Shown piece by piece: positions 38,215-47,534 of a stretch of DNA of 64,000 nt. Position numbers and translations under genes: made by a program. Below the pieces are notes generated by a model. It was not told the origin of the DNA. It was given only the letters and a program-made list of their open reading frames with translations, and made no database searches. Origin of the DNA: Devosia neptuniae (GTDB taxonomy: Bacteria; Pseudomonadota; Alphaproteobacteria; Rhizobiales; Devosiaceae); assembly GCF_025452235.1 (NCBI RefSeq), contig NZ_CP104965.1, positions 3,282,501 through 3,346,500 on the forward strand, given 5' to 3'. Position 1 is the stretch's first letter; each line of letters begins with the position of its first letter.

Positions 38215-39051
38215 ATGGCGGCTGCGCAACGGATCATCGCAACGATCCTGGGGTGCGGCTCATCGGGCGGCGTGCCGCGCATCGGCAATGTCTGGGGCGA
38301 TTGCGACCCGGCCGAGCCGCGCAATCGGCGCCGCCGCTGTTCCTTGCTCATCGAGGGCTGGAGCGACGGCAGCAGCGAGCCGACACGGGTCCTGATCGAC
38401 ACCGGCTGCGATCTGCGCGAGCAGTTGCTGGATGCTCAAGTCGATCGCGTCGACGCCGTGTTCTATACCCATGAGCATGCCGACCACACCCATGGCATCG
38501 ATGATCTGCGCGTATTGGCGTTGCACAATCGCCGCCTGGTCGACGTGTACTTCACCCAGGTCACTGGCGAACGCCTCCGCGAAGCCTTCGGCTATTGCTT
38601 CACCGCGCCGTCCGGCAGTTCGTATCCGCCCATCTTGAGCGCTCACACGATCGCGCCGGACGCGAAATGCATCGTGGACGGGCCGGGCGGCTCCGTCGCA
38701 GTCCAGGCCTTCGAGCAGACCCATGGCGATATTTCCTCGCTGGGCTTCCGCATCGGCGACTTTGCCTATTGCTGCGATCTGTCGGGCTTTCCGCCGCAGT
38801 CGCATGAGGCGATATCGGGTCTCTCGATCTGGGTCATCGATGCGCTACGGCCGACGCCGCATCCCAGCCACCTAAGCTTGCCTGAGACCTTGGACCTGAT
38901 CGCCCAATTCGCACCCAGCCAAGCCGTGCTCACCAACATGCATATCGATCTCGACTACCGTGCAACCGAAACCGCAACGCCGGCAAACGTCACGCCGGCA
39001 TTCGATGGCATGCAGATCGACGTGCTGTCCGGATGCATCCTCAATCGCTAG
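38215..39051 (+). CDS. MBL-fold metallo-hydrolase (PhnP/cyclic phosphodiesterase-like)
   Basis: This is a 278-residue metallo-beta-lactamase-fold protein. The metal motif is THEHADHTHG (HxHxDH). The N-terminal ILGCGSSGGVPRIGN, followed by DCDP, is the PhnP-like signature. The ATG directly follows the TatD stop. Substrate unknown; a phosphodiester is likely from family. Confidence 0.9.
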   Translation: MAAAQRIIATILGCGSSGGVPRIGNVWGDCDPAEPRNRRRRCSLLIEGWSDGSSEPTRVLIDTGCDLREQLLDAQVDRVDAVFYTHEHADHTHGIDDLRVLALHNRRLVDVYFTQVTGERLREAFGYCFTAPSGSSYPPILSAHTIAPDAKCIVDGPGGSVAVQAFEQTHGDISSLGFRIGDFAYCCDLSGFPPQSHEAISGLSIWVIDALRPTPHPSHLSLPETLDLIAQFAPSQAVLTNMHIDLDYRATETATPANVTPAFDGMQIDVLSGCILNR

Positions 39052-39112
39052 GTTTGTGGTGCAGTTGGCTTAAAGGCCCGCAATGCCTAGGCATTTTGAT
39101 CCATTTTAGTTC

Positions 39113-39128
39113 CATAATATATATTATG
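39113..39128. promoter_or_regulatory. Perfect AT-rich 16-bp palindrome in a convergent intergenic gap
   Basis: CATAATATATATTATG is a perfect dyad inside an AT-rich stretch (39100-39145) of an otherwise GC-rich region. It looks like an operator, but both neighbours end toward it. It could be the remnant of a promoter region or an insertion boundary. No terminator was seen here. Confidence 0.4.
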
Positions 39129-39202
39129 CGAATGATGGATATACGACAGAGGCCACTGGCCAGACCCGCCCACTATGTCGTTCCGATAATCGCCGGCCCC
39201 GC

Positions 39203-39994
39203 CTAGCGACTGCCTGGTAGCGGCATGCGTTCAATTTCGGCGAGGACTTCGAGCATGCCGGCGACATTGTGCTCGGCGATCTCGCGGCCCTTTTCTGCTG
39301 TTGCGATAGACGCATCGCCAACTGCGCCGCCCGGATTGATGTCGGAGGCGATCCACGCATAGGTGTGGCCGAAAGCGCCGGTGGGCCGCAGATATTTGTA
39401 TTCGGCCTCGTCGCGCGCTGCGATGGACACGAAGTTCTCGGCGCGGCTCATATCGACTAGATCGGGCCGGAAATGCAGGACGAGCGAGGTTTCGGCATCC
39501 CCGCCATGGATGCCGTGGCGGCGTTCGAGCTCGCTCAATAGCCCGGATGGCGTGAAGCGCCAGCCGCTTTTGACGGCCAACATGCCGGCTTGCACCCGCA
39601 GTTCGCGGGCGACGATGCCCATGATCTCTTCATTGCCGCCATGCGAATTGACGAAAATGATCTTGCGGACCCCTGCCCGCGCCACTTCCAGTCCGATCTG
39701 CGTCCAGGCGTCGATCAGATTGGCTGCCTTGTGGCTGATCGTGCCCTTGGCCCAGATATGTTCGTTGGATTTGCCAATGGCCTGAACTGGCAGGATGCGA
39801 ATATCGAGCTCGGCCGGCGCGCGGGCCGCGAGCAGCTCCATCATCGACTGGTTGATGATCGTGTCCGTGCCCACCGGTAGATGGGGGCCGTGCTGCTCGA
39901 CGGCCGCGATGGGCAGGATGGCAATGGTCTTTGCCGGGTCGATATTGTTGAAATCGGACGCGGAAAAGTCGGTCCACCAGATTTTGCGGGTCAT
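39203..39994 (-). CDS. Creatininase-family amidohydrolase
   Basis: This 263-residue metal-dependent amidohydrolase shows the family ligands: Glu and His in AAVEQHGPHLPVGTD, then FVNSHGGNEE and the GGDAETS acidic site. The family opens cyclic amides such as creatinine and also includes FAPy deamidases and MftE-type peptidases. The ATG at 39994 has GAGGA at seven bases. It is the second gene of a two-gene unit with ridA, divergent from the transporter operon. Substrate unknown. Confidence 0.88.
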   Translation of the reverse strand: MTRKIWWTDFSASDFNNIDPAKTIAILPIAAVEQHGPHLPVGTDTIINQSMMELLAARAPAELDIRILPVQAIGKSNEHIWAKGTISHKAANLIDAWTQIGLEVARAGVRKIIFVNSHGGNEEIMGIVARELRVQAGMLAVKSGWRFTPSGLLSELERRHGIHGGDAETSLVLHFRPDLVDMSRAENFVSIAARDEAEYKYLRPTGAFGHTYAWIASDINPGGAVGDASIATAEKGREIAEHNVAGMLEVLAEIERMPLPGSR

Positions 39995-40004
39995 AGAAAG
40001 GTCC

Positions 40005-40394
40005 TCAGGCCGGTCCGGCGGCAATGGCTTCGATTTCGACCACGAATTCGGGCCGGGCAAAGCCGGAAACAATCATCAGGGTCGAGGCGGGATAGGGCTC
40101 GGCGAACAGTACGTTGCGTACGCCCATATAGTCCGGCAGGTGCTCCCTGCCCGTCACATAGGCGTTGATGCGGATGATATTGGCGAGCGTCATGCCGGCC
40201 TCGCCCAAAATCGCCGCGATATTGTCAAAACAGATGCGCGTTTGGCCTGCGCAGTCGGGCGGCACAATCTTGTCTGCCCCAATGCCCAATTGGCCGGAAC
40301 AGAACACCAGACGCTGCCCCGGCGGCACGACAATGCCGTGGCTGTAAGGCGCGAAAGGCGGATGAATCTGGTGGGGAGAGAGGGGCGTCGCCAT
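40005..40394 (-). CDS. RidA-family enamine/imine deaminase
   Basis: This 129-residue Rid protein hydrolyses reactive enamines or imines from amine-oxidising steps. The key Arg and C-terminal motif are in GFARPEFVVEIEAIA, as in RidA. GGAAG is upstream of the ATG. It starts the creatininase-family unit, next to the divergent promoter. Confidence 0.9.
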   Translation of the reverse strand: MATPLSPHQIHPPFAPYSHGIVVPPGQRLVFCSGQLGIGADKIVPPDCAGQTRICFDNIAAILGEAGMTLANIIRINAYVTGREHLPDYMGVRNVLFAEPYPASTLMIVSGFARPEFVVEIEAIAAGPA

Positions 40395-40455
40395 AGTCAA
40401 AAACTTCCTTGAGGTGGCGATGCTAGCGTCCGGTAAACCGCTTGCCTAGCCCAAA

Positions 40456-40492
40456 CTGCACAATTTGCATGCATGGCAGGCATTTTGTGCAG
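40456..40492. promoter_or_regulatory. Inverted repeat in the divergent promoter of the catabolic island
   Basis: CTGCACAA and TTGTGCAG frame a 21-base spacer that contains the palindrome TGCATGCA (40466-40473). The site is 62 bases from the ridA start and 113 from the substrate-binding gene, so one regulator could control both units. No regulator gene lies in the island. Confidence 0.5.
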
Positions 40493-40604
40493 CTGCTCAT
40501 TTTTTGACTTCACAACAGACCAAGACCGGGCCAACAATTGCGCAAGCGACGCGGTCGCACAGAAATTGGTCGTGGCTGCCCATAGCCATGCCGGGGAGCG
40601 CAAC

Positions 40605-41615
40605 ATGCACGATATTACCAAACTCGTCTCATCGTCGGTCCTGATCTTCGGTGCCCTGTCGGGTGCCGCCACGGCCCAGGACAAGGTCACATTCGGCACC
40701 AACTGGCTCGCCCAGGCCGAGCATGGCGGCTATTACCAGGCCGTCGCCGATGGCACTTACGCCAAGTATGGCCTGGACGTGACCATCCGCCAGGGCGGCC
40801 CGCAGGCGCCAAATGGTCAGCTCTTGGTTGCCGGTCAGCTGGACTTCTACATGGGCGGCATGGGCACCATCGACTCGGTATCGCGCGGCATCCCCGTCGT
40901 CACCGTCGCAGCGATTTTCCAGAAGGACCCGCAGGTCCTGCTGGCGCATCCCGATGCACCCTTTACTGATCTGGCGAGCCTGACCGGCGCCAGCAAGATG
41001 ATCCTGGGCAAGGACAGCCTGTTCAGCGGCTTCTGGCCGTGGATGAAGTCGTCGATGGAAGGTTTCTCCGACGACAAATACGAGCCTTACACCTTCAATC
41101 CCGCGCCCTTCATCGCCGATCCGCTGGCCGTGCAGCAGGGTTATCTGACCTCCGAACCTTATGAAATTGAGCGCCAGACCGGCTGGGCGCCCAAGATTTA
41201 CCTGCTCGCCGACTATGGCTACGACCCCTACTCCACCGCCATCGAAACCCGGCAAGAGATCGTCGACACCAAGCCCGACCTGGTGCAGCGCTTCGTCGAT
41301 GCCTCGATCATCGGCTGGTACAATTACCTTTATGGTGACAACACAGCCGCTAACGACCTGATCAAGAAGGACAATCCCGAGATGACCGATGGTCAGATCG
41401 CCTTCTCGATCGCCAAGCTCAAGGAATATGGCGTGGTTGTATCAGGCGAAGCCGAGACCCAGGGCATTGGCTGCATGACGGCCGAACGCTGGCAGGCTTT
41501 CTATGACATGATGGTCAAGGCCGGCGTTTATGAAGCCGGTATTGATATCTCCAAGTCGTTCTCGACCGCATTTGTCTGCAAGGGCGTGGGTCTGGAACTG
41601 GCCAAGGCCGAATAG
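40605..41615 (+). CDS. ABC transporter substrate-binding protein (NMT1/ThiY-like)
   Basis: This 336-residue periplasmic binding protein has a signal peptide (cleavage near SGAATAQ). TNWLAQAEHGGYYQAVADGTY is the NMT1/THI5-like pattern for pyrimidine-type ligands, and CMTAERWQAFYDMM is at the C-terminus. The ATG at 40605 has GGGGAG at seven bases; an upstream frame start adds a non-signal stretch. Ligand inferred to be an N-heterocycle. Confidence 0.9.
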   Translation: MHDITKLVSSSVLIFGALSGAATAQDKVTFGTNWLAQAEHGGYYQAVADGTYAKYGLDVTIRQGGPQAPNGQLLVAGQLDFYMGGMGTIDSVSRGIPVVTVAAIFQKDPQVLLAHPDAPFTDLASLTGASKMILGKDSLFSGFWPWMKSSMEGFSDDKYEPYTFNPAPFIADPLAVQQGYLTSEPYEIERQTGWAPKIYLLADYGYDPYSTAIETRQEIVDTKPDLVQRFVDASIIGWYNYLYGDNTAANDLIKKDNPEMTDGQIAFSIAKLKEYGVVVSGEAETQGIGCMTAERWQAFYDMMVKAGVYEAGIDISKSFSTAFVCKGVGLELAKAE

Positions 41616-41630
41616 CACCGCGATCAATCG

Positions 41631-41652
41631 GCGCGGGCAATCCCGTCCGCGC
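41631..41652 (+). other. Stem-loop after the substrate-binding gene
   Basis: GCGCGG pairs with CCGCGC across ten bases and is followed by TGTTTT. Such stems commonly stabilise the binding-protein mRNA relative to the downstream transporter genes. Confidence 0.5.
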
Positions 41653-41680
41653 TGTTTTGACCCTAATCCGGGTTCCGATA

Positions 41681-42514
41681 TTGACCGATACATCAGCTGC
41701 CGTCGCCGCTCGTCCCATCGAGGTCGAAGCTCCTCGCGCCATCGTCTCGATGCGCAACGTCACCAAAGTGTTCTCCAACGGCACGCTGGCCCTCAAGGAC
41801 ATGTCGCTGGATGTGAAAGCCGGCGAGTTCATCTCGCTACTCGGCCCCTCCGGTTGCGGCAAGTCGACGGCCCTGCGCATCATTGCGGGGCTGGGTGCGC
41901 CAAGCTCGGGCAGCATCGATTGGCCATCGTCCAAGATCAACACCAAGGGCCTGCCCGAGGGCGATGTGGGGTTTGTGTTCCAAGACCCGACCCTGATGCC
42001 CTGGGCCAGCGTGTTCGACAACGTGCACCTGCCGCTCAAGCTCAGGGGCGTTTCCAAGGCGGATGCGCGCGAGCGGATCATGGAAGGGCTGGCCAGTGTC
42101 GGTCTGGCGGATTTCGCGAAATCCTATCCCCGCGAGCTGTCCGGCGGCATGCGCATGCGCGTCTCGATTGCGCGCGCCATCGTCACGCGGCCCAAGCTGC
42201 TGCTGATGGATGAGCCCTTTGCCGCGCTCGATGAAATCACCCGCCAGAAGCTCAATGACGACGTGCTGCGGCTGTGGCAGCAGTTCGGCATGACGGTGAT
42301 TTTCGTCACCCACTCAGTCTACGAGTCCGCTTATCTGTCGAGCCGCATCGTGGTGATGCGGGCGCGGCCGGGCCAGGTGTTCACCGATATGCAGATCACC
42401 CAGCCCCCCGTTCGCGACCACGATTATCGCAATTCCGAGGGCTATCGGCAGACCTGCCAGACCGTTTCGGATGCGCTGCAACGCGCCATCCATGCTGCGG
42501 AGATCACGTCATGA
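41681..42514 (+). CDS. ABC transporter ATP-binding protein (NitT/TauT type)
   Basis: This 277-residue ATPase has GPSGCGKST, a FVFQDPTLMPW Q-loop typical of this subfamily, LSGGMRMRV and LLLMDEPFAALD. It energises the uptake of the ligand bound by the preceding protein. The start is unclear: TTG 41681 is chosen because TTG 41657 overlaps a stem-loop tail. The stop overlaps the permease start (ATGA). Confidence 0.9.
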   Translation: MTDTSAAVAARPIEVEAPRAIVSMRNVTKVFSNGTLALKDMSLDVKAGEFISLLGPSGCGKSTALRIIAGLGAPSSGSIDWPSSKINTKGLPEGDVGFVFQDPTLMPWASVFDNVHLPLKLRGVSKADARERIMEGLASVGLADFAKSYPRELSGGMRMRVSIARAIVTRPKLLLMDEPFAALDEITRQKLNDDVLRLWQQFGMTVIFVTHSVYESAYLSSRIVVMRARPGQVFTDMQITQPPVRDHDYRNSEGYRQTCQTVSDALQRAIHAAEITS

Positions 42515-43374
42515 ACCAGATCAAGACCATCGCCCCAGCCGAAGCCGGCACTGATGCCGCCGTGGCTGCACTGATCCCGCGCGCCACCACCAATGAAAAG
42601 GTATTGCGCATCGCAGTCCCCCTTATCGCACTGGTACTGGCGATCACGGCCTGGCATTTGCTGGTCACGATCAACGGCATTCCCAAATACATCCTGCCTG
42701 GGCCGGTCGATGTCGTCATCGCGCTGTTCACCGATTCCGCCACGCTATGGCCCGCCCTGCTCGTCACCCTCAAGATCACTTTCATGGCCCTGGCTTTGGC
42801 GCTGATTGGCGGCGTCGGGTTGGCGATCCTGTTGGTGCAGTCGCGCATTCTCGAACTGGCGCTATTTCCCTTTGCAGTGATCCTGCAGGTGACGCCGATG
42901 ATCGCCATTGCGCCGCTGCTGCTGATCTATGCGCCCGATACGCAGACTGCTTTGCTCATCTGCGCCTTTCTCGTGGCCTTCTTCCCCATCCTCTCCAATA
43001 TGGCGCAGGGCCTCAAGAGCGTCGACCATAACCTCTTGAACCTGTTCGAGCTTTACGGCGCCTCGCCGTGGCAGACGCTGCTCTACCTCAAGATTCCGAC
43101 CTCCATGCCCTATTTCATGGCCGGGCTGCGGATCGGTGGCGGCCTGTCGCTGATCGCGGCGGTCGTCGCAGAATTCGCTGCTGGCTCCGCTGGCCAGGGC
43201 GCAGGTCTCGCGTTCCGGCTGCTGGAAAGCCAGTACCGGCTCAATCTGCCCCGCCTCTTCGTTGCCTTGCTGATGCTGTGCGGCACCGGCATTGCCATCT
43301 TCGGGCTAACTTCGTTTATCTCCTGGCTGACGCTCCATCGCTGGCATGAGAGCGCCATCAAGCGGGAGAATTAA
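42511..43374 (+). CDS. ABC transporter permease (NitT/TauT type)
   Basis: This 287-residue permease has about six membrane segments after a 30-residue cytoplasmic N-terminus. The EAA-type loop is LFELYGASPWQTLLYLKIPTSMP. It overlaps the ATPase gene by four bases. It completes a three-gene importer. Confidence 0.92.
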   Translation: MNQIKTIAPAEAGTDAAVAALIPRATTNEKVLRIAVPLIALVLAITAWHLLVTINGIPKYILPGPVDVVIALFTDSATLWPALLVTLKITFMALALALIGGVGLAILLVQSRILELALFPFAVILQVTPMIAIAPLLLIYAPDTQTALLICAFLVAFFPILSNMAQGLKSVDHNLLNLFELYGASPWQTLLYLKIPTSMPYFMAGLRIGGGLSLIAAVVAEFAAGSAGQGAGLAFRLLESQYRLNLPRLFVALLMLCGTGIAIFGLTSFISWLTLHRWHESAIKREN

Positions 43375-43378
43375 GGTT

Positions 43379-44698
43379 TTGACGATCACTATTCCTTCGA
43401 CCGGCCGCTATGTGCTGGCCAATGCAAACGTGCCGGCAGCAGTGATGGGCGAGCCCGCCTCGGGTGCGCTTGTTCTGGTCGATATCGAGATTGCCGATGG
43501 CAAGGTCACCAGCATTGGCGCCGCTGGCAGCGGCCTGCTCGGGCCGGATCGTATCGATCTCGACCATGGCATTGTGCTGCCAGCCTTTGTCGACCTGCAT
43601 ACCCATCTCGACAAGGGCCATATCTGGCCGCGCAAGGAAAACCCCGATGGCACCTGGCTTGGTGCCCTGATGGCCGTCGGCGAGGACCGCAGTGCCAATT
43701 GGGCGGCGGCCGATGTCGAGCGGCGCATGGATTTCGCCCTACGCTGCGCCTGGGCGCATGGCACGGCCGCCGTGCGGACGCATCTTGATACGGCGCCGCC
43801 GCAGCATGAGATTTCCTGGGACGTGTTCGAGGCCGTACGCGAGCGTTGGGTGGGTCGGATCGAGCTTCAGGCGGCAGGTCTTATGGGGCCCGACACCATT
43901 CTTGACCCGGCGGCGCTTCGCGCCGTCGCCACACGCACCAAGGCGGCCAAGGGGCTGCTGGGCGGCTCCACGGGTGTTCACCCGGACAATCCCGCCATTA
44001 TGCGCGCGCTGCTCCAAGTCGCTGGCGATTTCGGCCTCGATGTGGACCTACATATTGACGAAACCGGAGACCCGGCGGCTGACGCTTTGCAGAGCCTGGC
44101 CGATGCGGTGATCGAGACCGGTTTTACCGGCAAGGTGACGGCCGGGCATTGCTGCGCCATCGCCATTCAGCCCGAAGCGACGGCCATGGCAACCATCGAG
44201 CGCGTCGCGCAAGCCGGCATTGCTGTGGTCTCGCTGCCGATCTGCAACATGTATCTGCAGGATCGCCGCAATGTGGGCGGGGTGCGAACGCCGCGGTGGC
44301 GGGGTGTTACCCTGCTCAACGAACTCAAGGCGGCCGGGGTGCCGGTTGCCATCGCGTCGGACAATACCCGCGACCCGTTCTATGCCTATGGCGATCTCGA
44401 CGGCTTTGAAGTCCTGCGCGAAGGCGCGCGGATTTTGCACTTCGACCATCCGCAGGCCGATGCCTTTACCTGGGCGCGCTCGGTCAGCGCCGAGCCGGCG
44501 GCCATTGGCGGCTTCAACTATTCCGGCACGATTAGCGCCAGGCTTCCTGCCGAGCTGGTGCTGTTCCGCGCCCGCACCTGGACCGAGCTGATGTCCCGGC
44601 CACAAACCGACCGCGTCGTGTTGCGCAATGGCGCTGTTATCGACACCACCCTGCCCGACTACCGTGAACTCGACGACCTGATGGGACGACACGCATGA
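43379..44698 (+). CDS. Cytosine-deaminase-like amidohydrolase
   Basis: This 439-residue TIM-barrel enzyme has the metal motif HTHLDKGH (His-x-His), then LHIDETG, GHCCAI and SDNTRDPFYAYGD, the pattern of the bacterial cytosine deaminase group. It should deaminate a ring-amino compound such as cytosine, isocytosine or creatinine. The start is uncertain; TTG 43379 follows AAGG closely. The stop overlaps the next start. Confidence 0.85.
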   Translation: MTITIPSTGRYVLANANVPAAVMGEPASGALVLVDIEIADGKVTSIGAAGSGLLGPDRIDLDHGIVLPAFVDLHTHLDKGHIWPRKENPDGTWLGALMAVGEDRSANWAAADVERRMDFALRCAWAHGTAAVRTHLDTAPPQHEISWDVFEAVRERWVGRIELQAAGLMGPDTILDPAALRAVATRTKAAKGLLGGSTGVHPDNPAIMRALLQVAGDFGLDVDLHIDETGDPAADALQSLADAVIETGFTGKVTAGHCCAIAIQPEATAMATIERVAQAGIAVVSLPICNMYLQDRRNVGGVRTPRWRGVTLLNELKAAGVPVAIASDNTRDPFYAYGDLDGFEVLREGARILHFDHPQADAFTWARSVSAEPAAIGGFNYSGTISARLPAELVLFRARTWTELMSRPQTDRVVLRNGAVIDTTLPDYRELDDLMGRHA

Positions 44699-46095
44699 GC
44701 ATTTCAGATTTCCGCGCTGACCTTGGCGACATTCCAGTCGAGGATCATCCCCGCATCGTCCAGCAACGCAGCCGCGATCACTATTGGTATTCCCCGATAC
44801 TGAAAGCCAAGCTCGATCATGTGACCGCGGAAATCGTGGTGTCGCCGCGCTCCAATGCGGAGGTGAAAACCGTCCTCGCCGCCGCGTTCCGCCATGGCGT
44901 CGCCATCACCCCGCGCGGGGCCGGTACCGGCAATTACGGCCAGGCCATGCCGCTTTCGGGCGGCGCCATGCTCAATCTGATGAATATGGACAAGGTCCTG
45001 GAGATCAAGCCCGACCGTGTGCGTGCCCAGGCCGGTGCGGTGCTCGAACAGATGGACCACCAGACGCGGGAATCCGTAAACGGCGAGTTACGCTTTCATC
45101 CCTCGACCTATCGCATGGCCAGCATTGGCGGCTTTATCGCCGGCGGTTCGGGCGGCGTCGGCTCGATCCGCTGGGGTGGTCTGCGCAATATCGGCAGCAT
45201 TCTGGGGGTGAAGGTCATCACCTGCGAAGAGAACCCGCGCGAGCTGGATCTGGTGGGCGAGGACATCCTCAAAGTCGCCCATGCCTATGGCACCAATGGC
45301 ATTATCGTTGAGGCGGAAATGCCCCTGACGCAGGCGCATGACTGGGTCGATATGATCGTCGGATTCGACGACTTCATTGAGGCCTGCCGCTTTGGCGGCG
45401 CGGTCGCGCTGCAGGATGGCTTGCTGGTCAAGGAGGTGGCGCCCTGCGCGGCCCCGATCCCGCAGGACTACTTCAACCGCCACAAGCCCTATATCCGCGA
45501 TGGCCAATCCGTCGTGCTGCTGATGGTGGCGCCGGTGGCGGTGGACGCGATGACGCTGTTCGTGGCCCACCATAAGGGCGAAATGCTCTACCGCTCCGAC
45601 GAGGCCAGCGCCGAAGAGCTCAAGCGCCTTCCGCCCGTGTACGAACTGGCGTGGAACCACACCACGCTGCGGGCGCTCAAGGTCGATCCGACGATCACCT
45701 ATTTGCAGACGCGCTACCCAACCGTCGCTCATGTCGAAAAGATCATCTCGATCCTGGGCGATGAACTGCCCATGCATATCGAGGTGGGCCGGCAGGACGG
45801 CGTGGTCATGTATGGCGGCCTGCCGCTGGTGCGCTACACCACCGAAGAACGGCTCAACGAGATCATCCGCATCCACGAGGAAAACGGCTGCGCCGTATTC
45901 AATCCGCATCGCTACACACTTGAGGAAGGCGGCATGAAGCGGACCGATCAGAAACAGCTCGATTTCAAGCGCGAGGCCGACCCCAAGGGCATGCTCAATC
46001 CGGGCAAGATGATCGCCTGGGATGATCCGAATTTCGATTTCAATGCCGGCCGCGTCTGGCTGTTCGACGGCCTCAATCCAGTGAACGCCGCCTGA
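44695..46095 (+). CDS. FAD-binding oxidoreductase (PCMH/GlcD-like)
   Basis: This is a 466-residue flavoprotein. The PCMH FAD domain contains RGAGTGNYGQAMPLSGG (about 77-93), and the C-terminal KGMLNPGKM motif is typical of GlcD-like dehydrogenases. It overlaps both neighbours (ATGA and TGATG forms), so it is tightly coupled. It probably oxidises a hydroxy acid or alcohol generated from the ring; inference. Confidence 0.88.
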   Translation: MSISDFRADLGDIPVEDHPRIVQQRSRDHYWYSPILKAKLDHVTAEIVVSPRSNAEVKTVLAAAFRHGVAITPRGAGTGNYGQAMPLSGGAMLNLMNMDKVLEIKPDRVRAQAGAVLEQMDHQTRESVNGELRFHPSTYRMASIGGFIAGGSGGVGSIRWGGLRNIGSILGVKVITCEENPRELDLVGEDILKVAHAYGTNGIIVEAEMPLTQAHDWVDMIVGFDDFIEACRFGGAVALQDGLLVKEVAPCAAPIPQDYFNRHKPYIRDGQSVVLLMVAPVAVDAMTLFVAHHKGEMLYRSDEASAEELKRLPPVYELAWNHTTLRALKVDPTITYLQTRYPTVAHVEKIISILGDELPMHIEVGRQDGVVMYGGLPLVRYTTEERLNEIIRIHEENGCAVFNPHRYTLEEGGMKRTDQKQLDFKREADPKGMLNPGKMIAWDDPNFDFNAGRVWLFDGLNPVNAA

Positions 46096-46691
46096 TGCGC
46101 GTTCATGTGGTTCACGCTCACCCGGTGGAAACGAGCTATAATCGGGCTTTGTTCGATGCCGTGGTGGGCGAACTGACCGACAATGGACATGAGGTAGACG
46201 CTCTCAATCTTTATGACGAGCAGTTCGACGCGGTGCTGAGCCGCGAAGAGCGCCTGAACTATCACGAGGTGCCCGGCAATCTGACGCCGGCGATCAAGCC
46301 CTATGTCGATCGGCTGCGGGCGGCGGACGCCATCGTCTTTGTGCATCCGGTGTGGAATTACGGCTATCCCGCTATTCTAAAAGGATATTTCGACCGCATA
46401 TTCCTGCCGGGCGTGTCCTTTGTGATGGAGGGCGGCGGGGATCGGGGCCGGCTGGTTCCGAACCTGACAAACATCAGGAAGGCGGTCTTTATCACCACCT
46501 ACGGCGGCAATCGTTGGCGCACTATGCTCATGGGCGATCCGCCGCGCCGAATCGCGCGCCGCTGGGGTTGGGCCACCTTCCGGGGGCGAATGCCGCCGAA
46601 ATATCTGGCGCTTTACGACATGAATAATTGTACGCCCGAGCAACTCACCGGGTTCATTCAGACGGTTCGCAGCGAGATCGGCAAGTTCTAG
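46095..46691 (+). CDS. NAD(P)H oxidoreductase, flavodoxin-like fold (NQO/KefF-like)
   Basis: This is a 198-residue FMN protein. VVHAHPVETSYNRALF is the flavodoxin-fold phosphate loop, and VHPVWNYGYPAILKGYFDRI is the family core. It overlaps the preceding FAD gene by one base and ends the catabolic operon. It may recycle a flavin or reduce the ring. Confidence 0.88.
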   Translation: MRVHVVHAHPVETSYNRALFDAVVGELTDNGHEVDALNLYDEQFDAVLSREERLNYHEVPGNLTPAIKPYVDRLRAADAIVFVHPVWNYGYPAILKGYFDRIFLPGVSFVMEGGGDRGRLVPNLTNIRKAVFITTYGGNRWRTMLMGDPPRRIARRWGWATFRGRMPPKYLALYDMNNCTPEQLTGFIQTVRSEIGKF

Positions 46692-46724
46692 ACTGCAACT
46701 CCGATTCCTAGCCACGAGCCCGCC

Positions 46725-47534
46725 ATGCAGCCCTCCCGCGATATCTCCCGTCTGATCGAGATCATGGCGGCGCTGCGCAATCCAATGGGCGGTTGCCCCT
46801 GGGATCTGGAGCAGGATTTCTCGTCCATTCGTCACTACACGATCGAAGAGGCCTATGAGGTCGCGGACGCGATCGAGCGGCAGGATTTCTCCGATTTGCG
46901 GGAAGAGCTGGGCGATCTGCTGTTGCAGCCGATCTATCACGCGCAGATGGCCAGCGAGGCCGGTCATTTCGATATTGGCGATGTGATCTACGGCATTACC
47001 GAAAAGCTCATTCGCCGGCACCCGCATGTGTTCGGCGATCTCGACGCCAGTGATTCCGATGCTGCCAAGGGCCGCTGGGAGGCGATAAAGGCCGAGGAGC
47101 GCGCCGCCAAGGCAGCCCGCAAGGGCGAAACCACGCCTTCAGTGCTCGATGATGTCGCCGCGCCCCTACCCGCTCTGGCGCGCGCCGAAAAGCTCACCAG
47201 GCGCGCTGCCAAGGTCGGCTTTGATTGGCCGGACTATGCCTCCGTGCGGGCCAAGGCGGTCGAGGAACTGGATGAAGTCGATGAGGCTGTAGCTGCGGGA
47301 AACCCGGCGGCAGCCCATGAAGAGATCGGCGACCTGCTGTTTGCCGTCGTTAATCTCGCGCGCCACGCTGGAGTAGATGCCGAAGCGGCTTTGCGCGATG
47401 CCAATCTCAAATTCACCCGGCGCTTCCACTATGTGGAGGCCAGGTGCCGCGAGGACGATATCGAACCCGGCAATGCCGGGCTCGAACGTCTGGATGGCTA
47501 TTGGAACGAGATCCGTAAGGCCGACAAGGCCTAG
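46725..47534 (+). CDS. mazG: Nucleoside triphosphate pyrophosphohydrolase
   Basis: This 269-residue house-cleaning NTPase has two MazG folds. The first has GGCPWDLEQ and the ExxE metal sites (EEAYEVADAIE, EELGDLL). The second has EELDEVDEA and HEEIGDLLFAVVNLAR. The stop codon TAG lies in CCTAGG, a palindrome that also gives TAG on the other strand, where hflX should end. Confidence 0.94.
   Translation: MQPSRDISRLIEIMAALRNPMGGCPWDLEQDFSSIRHYTIEEAYEVADAIERQDFSDLREELGDLLLQPIYHAQMASEAGHFDIGDVIYGITEKLIRRHPHVFGDLDASDSDAAKGRWEAIKAEERAAKAARKGETTPSVLDDVAAPLPALARAEKLTRRAAKVGFDWPDYASVRAKAVEELDEVDEAVAAGNPAAAHEEIGDLLFAVVNLARHAGVDAEAALRDANLKFTRRFHYVEARCREDDIEPGNAGLERLDGYWNEIRKADKA

Follow-up and report, generated by a model that had tools for sequence, protein, structure and literature searches.

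An eight-gene island of Devosia neptuniae, conserved among related genomes, that probably serves the uptake and breakdown of pterins

A 64,000 nucleotide stretch of the Devosia neptuniae genome (RefSeq assembly GCF_025452235.1, contig NZ_CP104965.1, positions 3,282,501 to 3,346,500 of the forward strand), referred to here as the window, contains an island of eight adjacent genes at positions 39203-46691. The island consists of two divergent units, with rid and crn on the minus strand and sbp, atp, perm, dea, fad and nqo on the plus strand (Table 1). A sequence-only reading had described these units and the families of their products, and both strands and families were confirmed by the sequence and by family models. 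Its statement that the genes mostly overlap by one to four bases held for three of the five plus-strand junctions, atp/perm and dea/fad with 4 base pairs (bp) each and fad/nqo with 1 bp, whereas sbp and atp are 41 bp and perm and dea 4 bp apart. The gap between rid and crn is 10 bp. The G+C content of the island, 0.60-0.63, is unremarkable, and both flanks resemble housekeeping genes (metG, tatD, mazG, hflX and hfq, named by eye from the sequence). Scans for promoters and terminators gave 3 and 2 matches, against 2.9 and 5.9 in shuffled sequences, respectively.

Table 1. Genes and intergenic region of the island. Positions refer to the window; FAD, flavin adenine dinucleotide; ABC, ATP-binding cassette; aa, amino acids.
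Feature	Position	Strand	Details
crn: creatininase-family metal-dependent amide hydrolase	39203..39994	-	263 aa; start at 39994; PF02633
rid: RidA-family (YjgF/L-PSP) enamine/imine hydrolase	40005..40394	-	129 aa from ATG 40394, the most likely start, with a TTG at 40400; PF01042
divergent intergenic region	40395..40604	.	lone weak sigma-70-like match at 40509, not above chance; no Rfam match
sbp: NMT1/THI5-type periplasmic binding protein	40605..41615	+	336 aa; PF09084
atp: ABC transporter ATPase	41657..42514	+	285 aa from TTG, 254 aa from ATG 41750; PF00005
perm: ABC transporter permease	42511..43374	+	PF00528
dea: amidohydrolase-superfamily aromatic deaminase, probably pterin-type	43379..44698	+	439 aa, TTG start assumed; NF005759
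fad: PCMH/GlcD-fold FAD enzyme, homologue of 6v42	44695..46095	+	466 aa; FAD_binding_4
nqo: flavodoxin-fold NAD(P)H:quinone/flavin reductase-like protein	46095..46691	+	198 aa; PF02525

A scan of the genome collection with dea as the query identified 79 loci, in which genes outside the window were called by a simple custom gene caller. Sixty-four were well flanked, with at least 8 kilobases (kb) on either side of the dea midpoint; the 15 loci with shorter flanks were dropped, as were tblastn hits covering less than 45% of the query. The order sbp-atp-perm-dea-fad-nqo was collinear on one strand in 57 of the 64 loci, and all eight families were present, irrespective of order, in 56. Both the strict order and all eight families were seen in every one of the 36 well-flanked loci closest to the window (among L004-L045, L049 and L079, mostly Devosia). 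A set of 40 loci was also hand-picked for diversity from genome samples and is not random; 38 of these were well flanked and the other two dropped, and the strict order was found in 24 and all eight families in 17 of the 38. Among 397 genomes sampled from the order, dea (E <= 1e-60) was present in 142 and fad (E <= 1e-100) in 139. Both occurred together in 134 genomes, just one in 13 (dea alone in 8, fad alone in 5) and neither in 250 (Fisher p 1.6e-88, kinship ignored). In a sample from the phylum, dea was found in 28 of 398 genomes, and within the genus fad was common yet patchy (19 of 37 genomes at E below 1e-200). Based on synteny and co-occurrence, the grouping of the island genes is far beyond chance. 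The suspicion that an importer, a ring deaminase, a flavoenzyme, an amide hydrolase and RidA form a conserved set for the catabolism of an N-heterocycle is supported, and the genes are evidently not together in this genome only. On a Prochlorococcus contig (L082:9872-12538) distant counterparts of dea and fad (25% and 37% identity) are also adjacent, and in some relatives a second fad paralog (43-45% identity) stands beside crn (L053:4347-5723 and L047:2584-3942).

The gene to the left of the island was followed through 30 Devosia loci. In the four closest, L196-L199, of which L196 is the window, it is adjoined by crn, whereas in L220, L221 and L223 the two flanking genes are separated by 243-295 bases that contain no island, and the respective genomes (G008, G002 and G010) have fad elsewhere. 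Neither crn nor mazG was detected within the approximately 1.5 kb examined at the other 23 loci. With the site occupied in the former four and empty in the latter three, the island has therefore been gained or lost at this genomic position.

The FAD enzyme gave the first indication of a substrate class. Besides matching FAD_binding_4 (86.8 bits, cut-off 26.4), fad is 57% identical to the PDB entry 6v42, titled 'flavin oxygenase ... involved in folate catabolism', in a match that covers the full-length sequence and the fold. The structure used for fad was an alignment-based model; a single-sequence model was discarded (predicted local distance difference test score 32.9). The closest listed relative of 6v42/6v43 is a Hoeflea protein (89%), and the window fad is not among the nearest relatives. 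Assignment of fad to the folate-catabolic flavin oxygenase type is supported by homology. The neighbouring nqo matched Flavodoxin_2 (PF02525, 103.6 bits, cut-off 27), with 4r81, 3lcm and NQO1 as its nearest PDB relatives, and stayed under the NF007280 cut-off (86.6 against 162 bits).

The NCBIfam equivalog NF005759, 'cytosine deaminase', matched dea at 585 bits (cut-off 403), and this label would suit ordinary cytosine salvage by dea as a cytosine deaminase, with the other genes loosely linked to it. With the residue numbering and roles that we assume for CodA, the metal ligands H61, H63, H214 and D313 and the catalytic E217, H246 and Q156 are kept in the window dea and in all 102 rows of dea homologues; these rows are gene calls within a set length range at 45% identity or more, 100 of them distinct (the genomes of L046/L083 and L051/L095 are duplicated). 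In the same 102 rows D314, F316 and W319 of CodA are replaced by N, R and F, respectively, indicative of an altered pocket. A midpoint-rooted tree of 45 chosen rows, with a long-branch warning for L078, L116 and L146_13415, separated CodA, 5-methylcytosine deaminase and the PRK07572-type with a support of 100/100 from a group comprising the window type and two others, one of them the Variovorax pterin-deaminase type. By its sequence dea is thus placed in the pterin-deaminase half of the tree, apart from canonical cytosine deaminase, and in five Devosia a canonical enzyme of that separate clade adjoins the island. The loose linkage is further contradicted by the presence of fad in 134 of the 142 dea-bearing genomes, and cytosine salvage is scarcely credible. 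We regard dea as an aromatic deaminase, probably of pterin type, and NF005759 appears to cover such probably pterin-type deaminases, a possible annotation error.

A 399 residue pterin deaminase (EC 3.5.4.11) active on folic and pteroic acid was cloned from Variovorax sp. F1 by You et al. (2022; PMC9513972); in the cited sections it is given as 37% identical to Arad3529, and its second cloning primer sits in a downstream 'endoribonuclease' gene. The Variovorax genomes G780 and G779 contain deaminase paralogs of 396 and 399 residues, respectively. The term 'endoribonuclease' we take to be the former name of the RidA family. A deaminase of the published type, at 60% identity or more, is carried by 31 of 41 genomes of the genus Variovorax, and the loci of 22 of those 31 were analysed. 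The start of RidA matched the second primer without mismatch in 6 of the 22 loci and with at most two in 19, and L170, L192 and L194 had no RidA at the primer site. This primer is printed 5'->3' in section 19 of PMC9513972 but has to be read 3'->5' to fit the Variovorax gene. The 5' primer fitted best at the deaminase start in 16 loci, with one mismatch in L191, two in three loci and three to six in the rest. For the putative match of the L169/L170 type to the published gene, the second primer, the length and the gene order with RidA as neighbour carry more weight than the 5' primer. The deaminase adjoins an opposite-strand crn-atp-perm-fad-sbp operon in 15 of the 22 loci, 13 of which contain RidA and all of which contain a further reductase gene, of ferredoxin type by eye. 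Identities of the operon proteins to those of the window were 42% for crn (L170), 42% for fad (L169) and 48% for sbp (L169). The operon is not described in the cited sections of PMC9513972.

Because fad resembles an enzyme titled folate-catabolic, and because the primers of a published pterin deaminase fit a relative of dea together with RidA, adjoined in most of the Variovorax loci by homologues of five further island genes, we interpret the island as a cluster for the uptake and breakdown of pterins, the pteridines derived from folate, with a probability of roughly 0.78. The NMT1-type sbp and the ABC transporter would import a pterin or else a similar product of folate scission. By homology to the verified pterin deaminase, dea would strip the 2-amino group from the pterin, yielding the corresponding lumazine and ammonia. 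Oxygenation of the pteridine would fall to fad, going by the enzyme class of 6v42, with nqo as its likely reductase or electron partner. As judged from their families, crn would act on the oxidised ring by hydrolysing a cyclic amide or a formamide, and rid would hydrolyse the enamine or imine thus released. In this scheme we infer the import of pterin and every step that follows deamination. The pyrimidine, creatinine-like or thiamine-derived ring proposed in the sequence-only reading is probably wrong in view of the title of 6v42 and the grouping of dea with the Variovorax pterin-deaminase type.

Several observations weigh against pterins. The folate-catabolic title of 6v42 is the depositor's statement, and no publication behind this entry was found in the openly licensed literature. 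In 6 of the 22 Variovorax loci the 5' primer fits best elsewhere, with five mismatches; the operon is missing from 6 loci and truncated by the locus end in L169. The RidA of the Variovorax pair is just 28% identical to rid over 94 residues. The exact substrate of the window dea may be another pteridine than that of the Variovorax enzyme, since dea shares 33% identity with the L169 deaminase, from which it is set apart in a separate supported group, and since the Variovorax genomes G778-G780 also carry members of the window-type group. Finally, an '8-oxoguanine deaminase' homologue is located near rid or crn in 21 loci (19 distinct; none named Devosia), and five Devosia (L006, L010, L013, L017 and L020) have nucleoside-type genes beside the island; these neighbours fit a purine equally well.

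The island would then degrade an oxidised or modified purine such as 8-oxoguanine or isoguanine by deamination, flavin-dependent oxygenation and opening of the imidazole or pyrimidine ring. The '8-oxoguanine deaminase' homologues of L054 (4710-6146), L046 (4879-6222) and L064 (4883-6226), the three scanned among the 21, exceed the NF006055 cut-off with 646-663 bits. The Ramlibacter island (L080, 17782-19885) has two Rieske oxygenases and a further binding protein at its end, and the nearest PDB relative of the Rieske oxygenase compared is the methylxanthine demethylase NdmA. The family scans of the five Devosia covered L013 and L017, where a nucleoside-hydrolase-like protein reached 204 bits with the RihC model, under the cut-off of 382. 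The genome of the window, however, contains no 8-oxoguanine deaminase above cut-off, and the five Devosia, having their flanks in common, probably represent one lineage whose extra neighbours the window is without. The title of 6v42 and the neighbourhood of the Variovorax pterin deaminase point to pterins. Pterin and isoxanthopterin deaminases are moreover related to these amidohydrolases, which also counts against a purine, and we consider a purine substrate improbable. The '8-oxoguanine deaminase' homologue may itself act as a further deaminase of pteridines; that in L054 has 3hpa, 7ww2 and 2paj as its best PDB relatives. The neighbours in the five Devosia also include a phosphoribosyltransferase, an M20-type amidohydrolase, a canonical PRK07572-subfamily cytosine deaminase and a nucleoside-type ABC importer (by eye), whose binding protein had no NCBIfam match at 1e-40.

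The importer genes atp and perm matched ABC_tran (PF00005, 119.8 bits, cut-off 25) and BPD_transp_1 (PF00528, 77.7 bits, cut-off 26.4), and sbp matched NMT1 (PF09084, 72.5 bits, cut-off 20.5). The nearest PDB entry to sbp was 4nmy (E 1.2e-5), followed by THI5 4h65 (E 2e-4), and its TNWlaqaEHGG motif is mostly kept across 95 rows. An alkanesulfonate appears disfavoured as the ligand, with 30.3 bits for SsuA (TIGR01728) against a cut-off of 163.5. The NMT1/THI5 fold family of sbp, three of whose four PDB hits are THI5/THI13 chains, and the above-cut-off cytosine deaminase label of dea would also accord with catabolism of the thiamine pyrimidine (hydroxymethylpyrimidine) or another simple aminopyrimidine. 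The NMT1 family is broad, however, with 14 matches in the genome of the window, and the pocket and clade of dea are unlike those of cytosine deaminases. No thiamine pyrophosphate riboswitch or other Rfam family was matched up to E 1 across 39000-46800, and a family scan revealed no thiaminase-like gene among the eight. A pyrimidine of this kind is highly improbable.

The fold family of crn is clear (Creatininase PF02633, 219.5 bits, cut-off 31.3), and its motifs EQHGPHLP, GKSNEH and HGG are near invariant in 80 aligned rows. The four equivalog cut-offs listed were all missed: TIGR04448 (82 against 235 bits), MftE (93.6 against 172), IolN (55 against 245) and ArfB (28.6 against 180). As TIGR04448 is the equivalog for creatininase proper (EC 3.5.2.10), the creatinine reading was rejected; the earlier family assignment of crn stands for the fold only, and a true creatininase seems unlikely. 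In the cited part of PMC9478397, BrbF, first annotated as creatinine amidohydrolase, frees formate from a formamidopyrimidine, a precedent that makes a role of crn as formamide or amide hydrolase plausible. rid matched RidA (PF01042, 76 bits, cut-off 27.3) and remained under the narrower cut-offs of TIGR00004 (54.1 against 106.25 bits) and RutC (31.8 against 169.1).

A second creatininase paralog is found elsewhere in the same genome (L146, C2:2762500-2780500) near an ABC importer and a BtpA-like protein. Also encoded there are an FGGY kinase, a Questin oxidase-like protein, a gamma-glutamyltranspeptidase and two amidohydrolases with a distant likeness to cytosine deaminase. This locus is another uncharacterised catabolic set and was discarded as a counterpart of the island, the gene set being different.

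Within the pterin interpretation, a rather unlikely extension is that fad and nqo produce an oxo-lumazine and that crn opens or contracts the ring, so that folate rings enter purine catabolism and the island holds the missing genes by which the pteridine ring is destroyed aerobically after deamination. Biochemical work of the 1960s reportedly described such ring opening and contraction, from tetrahydroxypteridine to xanthine-8-carboxylate (EC 5.5.1.3), an activity for which we know of no gene. Contraction into purine catabolism would explain the purine-like neighbours in some relatives.

In the sample from the order, roughly one genome in three has both marker genes and carries this unnamed set under labels such as 'cytosine deaminase' and 'creatininase'. 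Pterin breakdown would give these family labels a better meaning and provide candidate enzymes for the fate of folate rings in soil. According to the cited sections of PMC9513972, the Variovorax strain consumes more folic acid than the identified products explain, and its cell-free extract did not degrade deaminopteroic acid. For breakdown steps still unexplained, the island offers five candidate enzymes.

The island may be compared with further known systems. In the Rut uracil pathway an N-heterocycle is opened by a flavin oxygenase, a flavin reductase and a RidA-type protein, and the island would work likewise. RutA, however, is a luciferase-like flavoprotein, whereas the window has a GlcD-type FAD enzyme, and rid scores below the RutC cut-off. 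With the formamidase BrbF of riboflavin synthesis, as presented in the cited part of PMC9478397, crn shares the creatininase family label, a likeness by label, and the cut-off for the formamidase ArfB is well above the score of crn. Variovorax sp. F1, with its pterin deaminase and adjacent RidA gene, has in common with the window the half of the deaminase tree; the Variovorax operon differs in lying on the strand opposite its deaminase, in the added reductase and in its gene order. No description of the whole island turned up in the openly licensed literature searched, though one may be in print elsewhere, but the island belongs to a kind with at least two enzymes already studied.

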